64,000 nt of DNA, taken from contig BPGE01000001.1 of assembly GCA_026002875.1 (NCBI GenBank), forward strand, positions 3,162,001 to 3,226,000. The letters are read 5' to 3'. Shown here piece by piece: positions 9,234-63,225 of the stretch; position 1 is the first letter of the stretch, and each line of letters opens with the position of its first letter. A program made the position numbers and the translations under genes. Below the pieces are notes generated by a model, which was given only the letters and a program-made list of their open reading frames with translations, ran no database searches and was not told the origin of the DNA. This stretch comes from Bryobacteraceae bacterium. GTDB lineage: Bacteria > Acidobacteriota > Terriglobia > Bryobacterales > Bryobacteraceae.

Positions 9234-11725
9234 GACCCGTTCTCCGATTTGCGGTTCCGGCTCTGCTGCTGTTGTCCGCCGGCTGGCTTGTCTCGCAACA
9301 GGCCTCTCCGGAGCGCGTCGGCCCGCTGCCGGGCGGCGGCTTCCTGCTGAACTCCGGCTGGCTCCTCCGCCCGGCGGGCGAGCAGATTCCGCTCAGCACC
9401 ATGCCAATGGCGAGCGCGATGTCGCCCGGCGGGAAGTTCCTCGCCATCCTTCAGGGCGGCTACCTCCCCCCCACGGTCAGCATCCACGACGCCGCCACGC
9501 TGCGGAAGATCTCCGAAATCACGCTGCCTGACGCCTGGCTGGGGATGGCTTTCGCGCCCGAAGGCGGCCTGCTGTACGTCAGCGGCGGCTCGCGCGCCAC
9601 GATTTATGAGCTGGCGCTGCTGCCTGAGGGCAAGCTCGAAAAGCGGCGCGAATTCTCCGTGGTGGAGGAAAAGGAGCGGAAGCACGCGGACTTTCTGGGC
9701 GATCTGACGCTGTCGCCCGACGGCCGCCTGATTTATGCGGCCGCCCTGCACCGCGACATGATCTACGTGATCAACCCGCAGTCGGGCATGGTCATCGAGC
9801 GCTGGAAAACCGCCCACCGCCCGTACCGCATCCTCTTCCACCCCGACGGGAAGAGCTTCTTCGTCACGGGCTGGGGCGATGGAACGCTGCGGCAGCACTA
9901 TGCCGACTCGGGCGAAGAGGTGGCGCGCTACTCTACGGGTCCGCAGCCCATGGACATGCTGTGGCGGCTGAAGCCCGTCGCCGTCGAACAGGGCGAGGAA
10001 CCCCTGCCCTACACGGCGCGGCTGTTCGTCGCCGTTTCCGGCTCGAATCTGGTGCAGGTGTTCGGCCTTGGGCCGGGCGGCCTGCTGCGCCGGGCCGAAT
10101 CGATCAGCGTCGCGCTGTACCGCGACTTTCCGGAAGTGGCCGGCATGACGCCGAGCGCGCTGGCGCTCTCGCCGGATGAAGACCGCCTGTACGCTGTCTG
10201 TTCGGACGCCAACGCCGTGGCGCGCGTCAACATCAGCGAGCGCCGCAGCGTGGTGGAGGGGTTCATCCCTGTCGGCTGGTACCCTCTGGCGGCGCGCGTC
10301 CTGCCCTCCGGAAAGCTGATGGTGCTGAACGGGCGCGGGGCGCGCTCCTTCCCGAATCCGCAGGGGCCCAATCCGCTGGTGCGCCGCGCGGTGCTGCACG
10401 AGGGCAACGTCGCGGTGGAATATGTCGCCGCCATCCAGCGCGGCAGCGCTACTCTGCTTGATGAACCGCAGCCGGCGCAGATGGCCGCGCTCACGGAACA
10501 GGTGCTCGACAACGCCCCCTGGCGCCGGACGCGTCCCATGCAGTCGCCGCCGCAGGGTCATCCACTGGAGAAAGGCGGCGAAGAGTGTCCGCTCCGCCAC
10601 GTGATTTATGTGGTGAAGGAGAATCGCACGTTCGATCAGGTGCTGGGCGATCTCGGCATCGGCAACGGCGACCCGTCCCTGACGCTGTTCGGCGAAGACG
10701 TGACGCCCAACCATCACAGGCTGGCGCGCGAATTCGTTCTTCTCGACAATTTCTACGTCAACGCCGACGTCAGCGCCGACGGCCACAACTGGTCGAGCGC
10801 GGCCATTGCGCCCGCGTACGTGCAGCGCATGTGGCCGAACTCCTACGCCGCCCGCCGGAGACACTATGATTACGAAGGCGGCGAGCGCGCCGCCCTGCCT
10901 CCGGCGGGCTACATCTGGAGCAACGCCCTCCTCGCCGGCCTCAGCTTCCGCAACTACGGCTGGTGGGTGACGAACATTACGCCCGCGCCCGCCTCGGGGC
11001 GCCAGATCGCCGCCGTGCGCGATCCGTCGCTGGCTCCGCACACGAACATGGACTACCGCGGCTTCGACATGGACTACCCGGACGTAGAGCGCGTGAAGGT
11101 GTTCCTCAGGGATCTCGAAGAATTCCAGCGCCGCGGCCAGATGCCCCGCTTCATGACCATCCGGCTGGGCAACGATCACACGTCGGGCGTCTCGCCGGGC
11201 AAGATCGCGCCGAAGTCCGCCATGGCCGACAACGACCTCGCGCTCGGCATGCTGGTCGAGGCGGTCTCGAAATCGCGGTTCTGGCCCGCCACGGCGATCT
11301 TCGTTCTGGAAGACGACGCCCAGAACGGCGCCGATCACGTCGACAGCCACCGCGCCCCCGCCTACATCCTGTCGCCCTACACGCGCGGGCGCGGCATCGA
11401 TTCGACGATGTACAACACCGTGAGCATGCTCCGCACGATGGAGCACATTCTCGGCCTCCGGCCCATGACCATTCACGACGCCACGGCACGGCCCATGTGG
11501 GCCGCGTTCCATTCGAAACCCGACCCGCGGCCTTACTTCGCCGAAAAGCCCCGCGTTCCTCTCGATGAGCGCAACCCGCAGTCCTCGCCTCTGGCCGCGC
11601 GCTCGGCAAGACTCGACCTCAGCGAAGCCGACCGCATCGACGACGAAGAAATGAACGAGATTCTCTGGCGCGCGCTGCGGGGCACCGAGCCGCCGCCGCC
11701 CGTGCGCAGCTACTGGGGACGCTGA
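9230..11725 (+). CDS. Exported beta-propeller/phosphoesterase fusion protein
   Basis: The 831-aa product starts with a signal peptide (about residues 1-25). Residues of roughly 40-400 form a YncE-like seven-bladed propeller (LSPDGRLIY, ALSPDEDRLY repeats). The C-terminal half (about 450-800) is a phosphoesterase-family domain related to acid phosphatases and phospholipases C. It is recognised by HVIYVVKENRTFDQ, in which the E-N and T residues form the start of the metal site, and by later acidic motifs including LEDDAQNGADHVD and a conserved SPYT. The architecture is that of bifunctional YncE/alkaline-phosphatase-superfamily proteins, and the substrate is unknown. The ATG overlaps the nadE stop; the TGA shares one base with the next ATG (GH57), so three genes are translationally linked. 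Confidence 0.85.
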   Translation: MRPVLRFAVPALLLLSAGWLVSQQASPERVGPLPGGGFLLNSGWLLRPAGEQIPLSTMPMASAMSPGGKFLAILQGGYLPPTVSIHDAATLRKISEITLPDAWLGMAFAPEGGLLYVSGGSRATIYELALLPEGKLEKRREFSVVEEKERKHADFLGDLTLSPDGRLIYAAALHRDMIYVINPQSGMVIERWKTAHRPYRILFHPDGKSFFVTGWGDGTLRQHYADSGEEVARYSTGPQPMDMLWRLKPVAVEQGEEPLPYTARLFVAVSGSNLVQVFGLGPGGLLRRAESISVALYRDFPEVAGMTPSALALSPDEDRLYAVCSDANAVARVNISERRSVVEGFIPVGWYPLAARVLPSGKLMVLNGRGARSFPNPQGPNPLVRRAVLHEGNVAVEYVAAIQRGSATLLDEPQPAQMAALTEQVLDNAPWRRTRPMQSPPQGHPLEKGGEECPLRHVIYVVKENRTFDQVLGDLGIGNGDPSLTLFGEDVTPNHHRLAREFVLLDNFYVNADVSADGHNWSSAAIAPAYVQRMWPNSYAARRRHYDYEGGERAALPPAGYIWSNALLAGLSFRNYGWWVTNITPAPASGRQIAAVRDPSLAPHTNMDYRGFDMDYPDVERVKVFLRDLEEFQRRGQMPRFMTIRLGNDHTSGVSPGKIAPKSAMADNDLALGMLVEAVSKSRFWPATAIFVLEDDAQNGADHVDSHRAPAYILSPYTRGRGIDSTMYNTVSMLRTMEHILGLRPMTIHDATARPMWAAFHSKPDPRPYFAEKPRVPLDERNPQSSPLAARSARLDLSEADRIDDEEMNEILWRALRGTEPPPPVRSYWGR

Positions 11726-60774: not shown

Positions 60775-61413
60775 GTGGCCACCGATCTGATCGAAATCGA
60801 CGCCGAGCAGCCGTCCGTCGAGGCGATCGAACGCGCCGCCATCGCCATCCGGCGCGGCCAGATCGTGGCCATCCCCACGGACGCGCTCTACACGCTGGTC
60901 GCCGATCCCTTCAACCTCCACGCCGTCGGCCGCGTCTTCGCCGCAAAAGGCCGCGAAACGCAGCGCTCTCTGCCTCTCCTGGTCAGCGATTTTTTCATGG
61001 CTGAGGAGCTCGCTTCGGAATTGCCCGCGCGCTTCTTCCTTCTCGCGCGCCGTTTCTGGCCCGGCCCGCTCTCCATCATCGTGCCCGCAAGCGCCCGCGT
61101 GCCGCTGAAAGTCACGGGCAATACGGGTCGCCTCGCCCTGCGCCAACCGCGCTCGCCCGTCGCCCAGGCCCTCATCGACTGGCTCGGCCAGCCCCTGATC
61201 GGCACGTCGGCCAACGTCAGCGGCCAGCCCACCTGCCGCTCCGGCATCGAGACCTTCGCCATCCTCGACGGACGCATCGACCTCGTGCTCGACGGCGGCG
61301 CCTGCATTGGCAGCGGCGCCACGACTGTCGATGTCACCGAACCTTACTGGCGCATCATTCGTGAAGGCTGCATTCCCGAACGGGAGATCGCGGAATGTCT
61401 CCACGGCGTCTGA
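60775..61413 (+). CDS. Sua5/YciO/YrdC-family protein
   Basis: A 212-aa protein of the YrdC/Sua5 fold. It likely makes threonylcarbamoyl-AMP for tRNA t6A (TsaC), although a YciO-type paralogue cannot be excluded. Landmarks are RGQIVAIPTDALYTL near residues 25-40, with the KR-type dipeptide region 'KGRETQRSLPLLV' and 'GTSANVSGQPT'. GTG 60775 has GGAG 6 bases upstream. The next gene starts 18 bases before its stop. Confidence 0.85.
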   Translation: MATDLIEIDAEQPSVEAIERAAIAIRRGQIVAIPTDALYTLVADPFNLHAVGRVFAAKGRETQRSLPLLVSDFFMAEELASELPARFFLLARRFWPGPLSIIVPASARVPLKVTGNTGRLALRQPRSPVAQALIDWLGQPLIGTSANVSGQPTCRSGIETFAILDGRIDLVLDGGACIGSGATTVDVTEPYWRIIREGCIPEREIAECLHGV

Positions 61414-62183
61414 CCCCGCTTCTTCTTCTCGCGCTGGCTGCGCCCGCTTTTCAGTCCCCGTCCCTGCCGCGCGGCGGCGAGCTGGGCCGCGAGTGGGCCG
61501 CGGAAGAATGGAACTCTTCTGCGCTGGTTCTCAAGGGCAAATGGGTCCGGGACGGCGACAGCGCGCGCTTCCGCGTCTTCTACAGCGACGCAAAAGGCCG
61601 CCCCGCGACGTGGACCACCGAGATTCTGTCCATCGAGGGCAACACCGTCCGCTTCCGGATCACCATGCCGCTCAGCAGCGGCTCGAAGGTGTATTCCGCC
61701 ACGGGCACGATCCAGAGCGACGGACGCACCATCCGCGGCAAGGCCGAGTGGTGCGGCGGAGCCGTCTCCTGCGGCTTCCGCGTCGTCGCGGACTGGAAAC
61801 CCATCGCACAGGGCGTGGCCGAAGTGGCCAAAGCGAAGCAGGCGCCCCAACCCACATCGGTGCTGCGCGAAGGCATCCGCGCCAATCCCGGCAGGCTGTG
61901 GCGCGTGACGGACCTCACCACTCCCGGCTTCCACTGGGAAGGAACCTGGACCTTCGACGGCGACTCCGTCCGCTTCTCCTACCGCGAAAAGAATTCCGGT
62001 GCGAGAACCGAAGGCACGCTGGAGCTTCAGCGCTTCGATGGCGCTTACGTCCGCCTGTACAACCGCGGTTCGGCCGATACCTACGAAGGCTGGGTCCAGC
62101 CTGACGGCAGGACTCTCAAGGGAACCGCGAAAAGCTGCGGGACCGACCCCAAGTGCCGCTGGGAAGCGGTCATCGAGAAGTGA
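61395..62183 (+). CDS. Secreted protein with two tandem beta-rich domains
   Basis: Not a recognised family. A 262-aa protein with a signal peptide (about residues 1-19) and two related halves. Each half has a 'W.G.W..DGDS.RF' opening and ends in 'QSDGRTIRGKAEWC' or 'QPDGRTLKGTAKSC', with a Cys pair near the end (CGGAVSC and CGTDPKC). An internal duplication is therefore likely. The ATG at 61395 overlaps the Sua5-like gene by 19 bases. Function unknown. Confidence 0.7.
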   Translation: MSPRRLTPLLLLALAAPAFQSPSLPRGGELGREWAAEEWNSSALVLKGKWVRDGDSARFRVFYSDAKGRPATWTTEILSIEGNTVRFRITMPLSSGSKVYSATGTIQSDGRTIRGKAEWCGGAVSCGFRVVADWKPIAQGVAEVAKAKQAPQPTSVLREGIRANPGRLWRVTDLTTPGFHWEGTWTFDGDSVRFSYREKNSGARTEGTLELQRFDGAYVRLYNRGSADTYEGWVQPDGRTLKGTAKSCGTDPKCRWEAVIEK

Positions 62184-62184
62184 T

Positions 62185-62214
62185 TTGGCGCGGACCCCGC
62201 GATCACGCTATCCT
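62185..62214 (+). promoter_or_regulatory. Promoter of the 6S RNA gene
   Basis: TTGGCG (62185-62190) and TATCCT (62209-62214) with 18 bases between. The predicted start is about 62221, where the 5' arm of the closing stem begins. Confidence 0.6.
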
Positions 62215-62220
62215 GACCCT

Positions 62221-62418
62221 CAGAGGAGCGTTCCTGCAGAACGCGTCACTGGTCTCCATAATTGATCCGATGCAAATGAATCTGGAGCCCGGCTCGTTAC
62301 TTGAGCGCCGGTGAGCATGCTCCGCAAGGAGAAGCCTGAAGGCGCGCGGCGGGCGCCCCCCGTGGTCGATCGGGGTCGATTCCGAGGCTGGAACGGTTAT
62401 TGTGGTGCGCTCCTTCTG
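62221..62418 (+). ncRNA. ssrS: 6S RNA
   Basis: Binds the housekeeping RNA polymerase holoenzyme as a promoter mimic and lowers transcription in stationary phase. The apical region matches E. coli 6S: GTGAGCATGCTC at 62311-62322 and GAGAAGCCT at 62330-62338, with a CCGCAAGG apical turn in place of the E. coli GGUCCGUCC. The 5' arm CAGAGGAGCG (62221-62230) pairs with CGCTCCTTCTG (62408-62418) with one bulged base, giving a closing stem and a length of about 198 nt, usual for 6S. The long unpaired segment between the arms is the expected central bubble. A promoter lies at 62185-62214. The gene ends 6 bases before the ymdB ATG; ORFs read through it are not coding. Exact ends are not certain. Confidence 0.85.
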
Positions 62419-62424
62419 TTCTTC

Positions 62425-63225
62425 ATGCGTATCCTCTTCATCGGCGACATCTTCGCCTCTCCCGGCCGCCGCATCACGGCTGCCTGTCTGCCCCGTCTCG
62501 TCGGCGACGAACAGATCGATCTCGTGATCGCCAACGTCGAAAACGCCGCAGGCGGCTTCGGCATCACTCCGCCCCTTGCGCAGGAGCTGTTCGCCCTCGG
62601 CGTCGACGTGATGACCTCCGGCAACCACATCTGGGACAAGCGGGAGATCTACGACTACCTCAACAACGAGCCCCGCCTGCTGCGGCCGGCCAACTACGGT
62701 TCTTCCGTCCCCGGCGCCGGCATCGTCACAGGGAAAGCCCGCAACGGCGTCCCTTACGCCGTCGTCAACCTCCAGGGCCGCGTCCACATGCCGGCCATCG
62801 AGTGCCCTTTCCGCACCGCTGACACGCTTCTGGCCGGGCTTCCGCCCGAGATCCGCATCCGCTTCGTCGACTTTCACGCGGAAGCCACCAGCGAGAAGAT
62901 GGCCATGGGCTGGCACCTCGACGGCCGCGTCACCGCCGTCATCGGAACCCATACGCACATCCCCACGGCGGACGCGCGCGTCCTGCCCGGCGGCACCGCG
63001 TATCAGACCGATTGCGGCATGACCGGTCCCTACGACTCCGTCATCGGCGTCGAGAAGCGGACGATTCTTTACCGGTTCGTGACGCAGCTTCCCGCGCGCT
63101 TCGAAGCCGCCGCCGGCATGGTTGAGCTTCACGCCACCATCGTCGAGGCTGACGAAGAGACAGGCCTCGCCCGCTCCATCCGGCCCATCACCATCACCGC
63201 AGCCGAAGTCGGCGAGCCGCTGTAA
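62425..63225 (+). CDS. ymdB: YmdB/TIGR00282 metallophosphoesterase
   Basis: A 266-aa calcineurin-like phosphoesterase of the TIGR00282 family. Metal residues are visible as D8 in GDIFASPG, the Asn-His pair in SGNHIWD and 'GTHTHIPTAD' near the end. B. subtilis YmdB is a 2',3'-cyclic nucleotide phosphodiesterase that affects biofilm switching and interacts with RNase Y. The start at 62425 is used because it begins the fold (MRILFIGD); an upstream open frame passes through the 6S gene. It follows the 6S RNA by six bases, so the two could share a primary transcript. Confidence 0.88.
   Translation: MRILFIGDIFASPGRRITAACLPRLVGDEQIDLVIANVENAAGGFGITPPLAQELFALGVDVMTSGNHIWDKREIYDYLNNEPRLLRPANYGSSVPGAGIVTGKARNGVPYAVVNLQGRVHMPAIECPFRTADTLLAGLPPEIRIRFVDFHAEATSEKMAMGWHLDGRVTAVIGTHTHIPTADARVLPGGTAYQTDCGMTGPYDSVIGVEKRTILYRFVTQLPARFEAAAGMVELHATIVEADEETGLARSIRPITITAAEVGEPL

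Follow-up and report, generated by a model that had tools for sequence, protein, structure and literature searches.

A 6S RNA gene adjacent to ymdB

The window (the whole 64-kb stretch of DNA analysed, positions 3162001-3226000 of the single 4,863,736-base contig that makes up the genome) carries near its end a series of genes on the plus strand. There, tsaC (60775-61413, +) is followed by a 262-aa ORF (61395-62183, +), by the interval 62221-62418 (+), which we assign to a 6S RNA gene (ssrS), and by ymdB (62425-63225, +), after which a piece of a gene for an AMP-binding enzyme lies on the opposite (-) strand. Ahead of tsaC, the segment 58888-60744 (+) codes for a fusion of homocysteine S-methyltransferase (PF02574) and methylenetetrahydrofolate reductase (PF02219). 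The 262-aa ORF that separates tsaC from 6S has no match in Pfam or NCBIfam and is a lineage-specific gene; among 80 related ymdB loci, tblastn found it only in L061-L064.

The product of ymdB belongs to the TIGR00282 family of metallophosphoesterases, with scores of 267.1 bits against TIGR00282 (cut-off 254.15 bits, residues 1-257) and 347 bits against PF13277. Its two nearest named relatives share 87-88% identity with it and both come from metagenome assemblies. Two records, L062 (Arcobacter sp.) and L075 (Acidimicrobiia), hold Bryobacteraceae-type ymdB loci under titles that look mislabelled. YmdB of Bacillus subtilis is described as a phosphodiesterase, its physiological substrate not having been known, and has been discussed in relation to RNase Y-dependent mRNA control (PMC6123443); by analogy, the YmdB protein of the window may act in a similar way.

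A scan of the window against Rfam (release 15) returned a single match at the gathering level, that of the 6S family RF00013 at 62228-62411 (+), which spans the model from end to end (1-187 of 187) with 47.5 bits (E 2.1e-6). The initial annotation had called the interval a 6S RNA gene and had proposed this very search as a check, which came out above the threshold of 46.4 bits by a thin margin of 1.1 bits. Only one 6S match was found in the whole genome. Folded on its own, the sequence is of unremarkable stability (z -1.37, with 19 of 200 shuffles reaching an equally good fold). Because of the thin margin and the ordinary folding energy, we did not rest the identity of the gene on RF00013 alone and aligned the window sequence with those of 27 of the 29 other Bryobacteraceae loci retrieved by the RF00013 search. 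The covariance model built from these 28 sequences, R1, returned 62221-62418 with 165.5 bits (E 1.5e-40), a score to be read with the window sequence being part of the training set. It also found E. coli ssrS (38.5 bits, E 1.3e-8) and detected 6S in all 19 of the acidobacterial regions from outside Bryobacteraceae that were supplied to it. The ends at 62221 and 62418, which were those of the initial annotation, exceed the RF00013 match by 7 nt per side and were returned by R1, a model built with the same ends; the exact ends are predicted, and the predicted length of 198 nt falls in the range of about 180-200 nt that is expected of a 6S RNA.

Of 396 genomes of the Acidobacteriota, 263 gave RF00013 matches at E<=0.001, and the model exceeded its cut-off in 229. 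The corresponding counts for Bryobacteraceae are 62 and 20 of 101 genomes, while R1, with the genomes of its training sequences included, raised the number matched at E<=0.001 from 62 to 82. The public model is therefore a poor detector of 6S in this family, and it is in this sense that the earlier remark on the poor annotation of 6S genes in Acidobacteria fits. R1 found no match in the remaining 19 of the 101 genomes. Since four of these (G402, G418, G451 and G459) are listed at 99-100% completeness, true absence or strong divergence of 6S is possible in genomes that R1 does not match.

Structure and conservation of the 6S RNA

The consensus structure of the 28 sequences comprises 46 pairs in nine helices, with 97.1% of cells paired, compared to 38.5-50.2% in a sliding control in which the partners were moved by 1-3 columns. 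Two-sided changes occurred in 39 cells versus 11.0 in shuffles, and none of 500 shuffles reached 39 (relatedness was ignored in this comparison). Changes on both sides were seen in 10 of the 46 pairs, and further pair types showed no excess (38 versus 38.6 in shuffles). Taken as a whole, the structure made up of the closing stem, the central bubble and the apical arm shows compensatory changes across the 28 sequences. The closing stem proposed in the initial annotation is present, its 5′ arm GGAGCG (62225-62230, +) pairing with the 3′ arm CGCUCC (62408-62413, +) in 92.3% of cells; no two-sided change was seen in it, so that it is conservation, not covariation, that supports this stem. The helix below the central bubble, formed by UUGAUCC (62262-62268, +) and GGGUCGA (62373-62379, +), is paired in 99% of cells, likewise without two-sided changes. 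The 5′ strand of the bubble lies at 62269-62283 (+), as judged by alignment with RF00013 and E. coli ssrS, and the family alignment places the 3′ strand at 62358-62372 (+).

The core of the apical arm, GUGAGCAUGCUC ... GAGAAGCCU (62311-62337, +), has the same letters in E. coli ssrS and is well conserved in the Bryobacteraceae alignment. The likeness to the apical region of the E. coli RNA on which the initial annotation had drawn is thereby borne out, GGTGAGCATGCTC and GAGAAGCCT being identical in ssrS of strain K-12. The 12-mer GTGAGCATGCTC has a second exact copy in the window at 11420-11431 (+), where the Rfam scan gave no second 6S match. Because of this recurrence the 12-mer is not diagnostic by itself, and we discarded it as sole evidence for 6S.

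A GC-rich intergenic hairpin region that merely happens to look like 6S could produce a thin RF00013 margin, an ordinary folding energy and an apical 12-mer that recurs at 11420, but it is contradicted by covariation and conservation throughout the family. Nor would it be expected to occur once in the window genome and once in nearly all Bryobacteraceae genomes with a match, behind a conserved -10 slot and in a conserved neighbourhood (see below). We rejected such a chance match on the strength of the covariation and the neighbourhood, and give it practically no credence. With RF00013 over its cut-off, the R1 score and the covariation all in agreement with the initial identification, the interval 62221-62418 (+) very probably codes for a true 6S RNA.

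6S RNA inhibits the RNA polymerase that contains the primary sigma factor, and the synthesis of a short product RNA (pRNA) releases the polymerase. The edge of the bubble reads CCGAU both in the window and in E. coli ssrS, in which we take U44 to be the start position of the pRNA. From this identity, the pRNA of the window RNA is predicted to begin opposite U62271 and would read 5′-AUCGG (5′-AUCGGAUCAAUU...; 5′-AUCGGAUC).

The predicted 6S promoter and the start of ymdB

The 6S gene is preceded by a -10-type element, TATCCT (62209-62214, +), in a conserved slot. The pattern TANNNT occupies this slot in 41 of 41 6S genes that lie upstream of ymdB, the window included, compared to 10.0 expected from shuffles and to 4 of the same 41 in an upstream control slot. 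It was also found there in 27 of the 28 Bryobacteraceae loci from the RF00013 search, a set that overlaps the 41. The putative -35 element read from the sequence, TTGGCG (62185-62190, +), is weak, agreeing with TTGACA at four of six positions, and is separated from the -10 element by a spacer of 18 nt. A consensus promoter scan of 62050-62650 found no promoter. Of the -35/-10 pair put forward initially, the -10 element is supported by its conserved slot; the -35 element is weak and the pair escapes the consensus scan.

Six bases separate 62418 from the ATG of ymdB at 62425, a distance that had been given correctly, and the YmdB profiles align from this ATG or from three codons further on. The ymdB frame stays open for 114 nt into the 3′ half of 6S, up to a GTG at 62311 (62311-62424, +), so the earlier statement that the interval lacks coding potential does not strictly hold. 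In 11 of 41 relatives this upstream frame is interrupted before it gets to 6S, and TIGR00282 aligns from the ATG at 62425, for which reasons we rejected a start of ymdB at the GTG. The open frame may lead gene-calling programs to extend YmdB into the RNA.

A Shine-Dalgarno motif is absent before ymdB in 41 of the 42 6S-adjacent loci, the window included (in six of these 42, the annotated ymdB start codon is uncertain), and in 30 of 38 ymdB loci with no 6S upstream. We considered loss of the motif as a mark of 6S adjacency and rejected it: the motif is found in 1 of 42 loci with 6S and in 8 of 38 without, and most Bryobacteraceae ymdB genes therefore lack it either way.

Association of 6S with rny and ymdB across the Acidobacteriota

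To describe the neighbourhood of 6S in the phylum, we compared 56 regions drawn from 54 acidobacterial family codes other than Bryobacteraceae (one code supplied three of them) and four regions from Bryobacteraceae. The regions were picked from the better-scoring RF00013 matches in the phylum sample and are not a random draw; neighbours were identified by Pfam analysis of one representative each of pheT, zapA and rny and by profiles built in the course of the analysis. Outside Bryobacteraceae, rny follows 6S directly in 40 of the 56 regions, with ymdB next in 31 of the 40; ymdB itself follows 6S directly in seven regions, and neither gene is next to 6S in the other nine. Upstream, zapA lies within 1 kb of 6S in 50 of the 60 regions, most often preceded by a piece of pheT.

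RNase Y, the product of rny, was matched in 246 of 396 Acidobacteriota genomes, among them all 40 in which rny follows 6S. The same phylum-wide search found no RNase Y in any of the 16 genomes that contributed the 16 regions lacking rny directly downstream of 6S, and no genome of the class to which the window belongs was among the matches. Within Bryobacteraceae, none of 74 good-quality genomes has RNase Y. Matches were obtained in two of all 101 genomes of the family, one below the cut-off and the other in a genome with 6% contamination; G442, for which 6% contamination is listed, has 6S next to ymdB and, on a different contig, a good match to RNase Y. No match to RNase Y was found in the window genome, which codes for RNase E/G. 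Its zapA gene is at 1416787, 1.8 Mb from 6S on the contig, and hence not beside it.

Both 6S and ymdB were found in 81 Bryobacteraceae genomes. In 53 of them, 6S and ymdB share a strand, with 6S 14-191 nt ahead of the start of the YmdB profile; the remaining 28 genomes have the two genes on different contigs, so their linkage is not needed. Of 80 named ymdB loci, 77 with at least 300 nt of upstream DNA, 42 have an R1 match upstream (the locus L138 is cut by a contig end and the match in L087 is partial).

The 6S gene of the window resembles E. coli K-12 ssrS in its full-length covariance match, its rod with a central bubble, its apical letters, its single occurrence in the genome and the co-oriented coding gene that follows it. 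It differs in its RF00013 score (47.5 bits compared to 139.8 bits for ssrS) and in its neighbours: the E. coli order is zapA-ssrS-fau, with fau (ygfA) 75 nt from ssrS, whereas the gene of the window is not beside zapA and has ymdB 6 nt from its predicted end. The contrast in downstream gene drawn by the initial annotation is therefore correct. A closer frame than E. coli is provided by the acidobacterial order pheT-zapA-6S-rny-ymdB, of which the window looks like a reduced form: the RNA is homologous (as judged by R1 in the 19 regions mentioned above) and ymdB lies downstream on the same strand, but rny is missing between them and zapA is not upstream. Among the RNAs known to bind RNA polymerase are the 6S-1 and 6S-2 RNAs of Bacillus subtilis and the Ms1 RNA of actinobacteria (PMC9130861, PMC11077062).

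On a plain reading of the orders compared, 6S-ymdB would be what remained after deletion of rny from zapA-6S-rny-ymdB, a direction of change that we infer, and 6S would abut ymdB in the window genome because rny is missing. In a quick YmdB tree of 47 rows, parsimony needs five changes of arrangement, suggesting repeated independent loss of rny. We did not retain repeated loss as established, since the starred (well-supported) branches of this tree force only one change. Neither 6S in Bryobacteraceae nor the order 6S-rny-ymdB came up among the titles, abstract openings and passages covered by our literature searches; PMC2864571 refers to an expanded 6S collection in an additional file.

The position of the RNA close before ymdB in 53 of 81 genomes, together with the fact that 41 of 42 ymdB genes so placed lack a Shine-Dalgarno motif, would also suit a cis-acting structured leader of ymdB, riboswitch-like in nature, that is not released as a free 6S RNA. 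We rejected this reading, which has very little probability, because the RNA also occurs away from ymdB, on another contig in 28 of the 81 genomes, and lies between zapA (within 1 kb upstream) and rny in most other acidobacterial 6S regions. The end-to-end match to RF00013 also speaks against a cis-acting leader, as does the lack of the Shine-Dalgarno motif in 30 of 38 ymdB genes that have no 6S.

Transcription of ymdB

The 6S gene and ymdB have the layout of a 6S-mRNA dicistron like that of ssrS-ygfA in E. coli, being on the same strand and 6 nt apart, with no terminator-like site found between them in a scan of 62050-62650. Of 38 loci without 6S upstream, 28 have the pattern TANNNT 5-22 nt ahead of ymdB (9.3 expected); of 43 loci in which 6S is upstream, 2 have it (5.9 expected). 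The Fisher P value for this contrast, 3e-11, ignores relatedness and concerns a motif seen before the counting. An element resembling TGnTAACnT, a pattern chosen after looking, stands close before ymdB in 26 of the 38 loci without 6S (L069, L070, L082, L085, L099 and others), and its placement suggests that ymdB transcripts are leaderless in these loci. The simplest reading of these patterns is that ymdB would be transcribed from a promoter of its own in loci lacking 6S and from the 6S promoter in loci that have it. Co-transcription of 6S and ymdB, raised as a possibility in the initial annotation, thus has indirect support and is likely.

Alternatively, the 6S RNA could be real and ymdB could be driven by an independent promoter inside the 3′ half of 6S, the adjacency of the two genes being left over from the loss of rny. 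The window does contain a candidate -10 element, TATTGT at 62398-62403, 27-22 nt before the ATG and inside the 3′ arm of 6S, which is also present in L044 and L045 (L052 reads TGTTGT), and Bryobacteraceae ymdB genes without 6S mostly have their own -10-like element near the start. However, TATTGT is missing from most of the aligned sequences, many of which show CGGC together with letters rich in C, A and G at this place, the consensus scan of 62050-62650 found no promoter, and only 2 of the 43 loci that have 6S upstream carry TANNNT within 5-22 nt of ymdB. We consider an independent promoter rather unlikely, and retain read-through from the 6S promoter as the preferred source of ymdB transcripts.

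Discussion

The explanation that best accounts for the locus, and in which we have considerable confidence, is that of a single 6S RNA with its own promoter, set in a neighbourhood shaped by the loss of rny, with ymdB expressed by read-through from 6S; the function of the RNA is deduced from its family membership. The interval would encode the only 6S RNA detected in this organism, about 190-198 nt long, whose transcription would be driven by a housekeeping-type promoter with its -10 element at 62209-62214. As in other members of the family, the RNA would fold into a rod whose central bubble mimics an open promoter, and would bind the RNA polymerase holoenzyme containing the primary sigma factor as growth slows; the polymerase would then copy the bubble into a short pRNA, leading to release of 6S. 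The arrangement pheT-zapA-6S-rny-ymdB would have lost rny in this lineage, zapA having moved elsewhere, if the direction of change is as we propose. Expression of ymdB would then most likely depend on transcripts that start at the 6S promoter and run on into ymdB, and processing of the 3′ end of 6S would leave a ymdB mRNA whose leader is very short and devoid of a Shine-Dalgarno motif.

A more far-reaching proposal, which we put forward tentatively and hold to be less likely than not, is that 6S serves as both the 5′ leader and the driver of ymdB. In this proposal, deletion of rny would have placed ymdB under a strong stationary-phase promoter, the precursor would be trimmed to a near-leaderless mRNA, and the levels of 6S and YmdB would be set jointly. 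If so, a regulator of RNA polymerase and the phosphodiesterase of an RNA-turnover module (rny-ymdB) would be set together, and the deletion of rny that led to this arrangement may have happened in several acidobacterial lineages.

The identity of the RNA is ordinary, and its neighbourhood is the informative part. Bryobacteraceae have been little studied, the public model mostly stays under its cut-off in them, and the locus contributes a further 6S RNA from this family. In the order zapA-6S-rny-ymdB, which is common in the phylum sample, a regulator of RNA polymerase lies beside RNase Y and a phosphodiesterase. The lineages without rny offer a natural test of the coupling between 6S and ymdB, and a 6S-mRNA dicistron outside Proteobacteria becomes directly testable.
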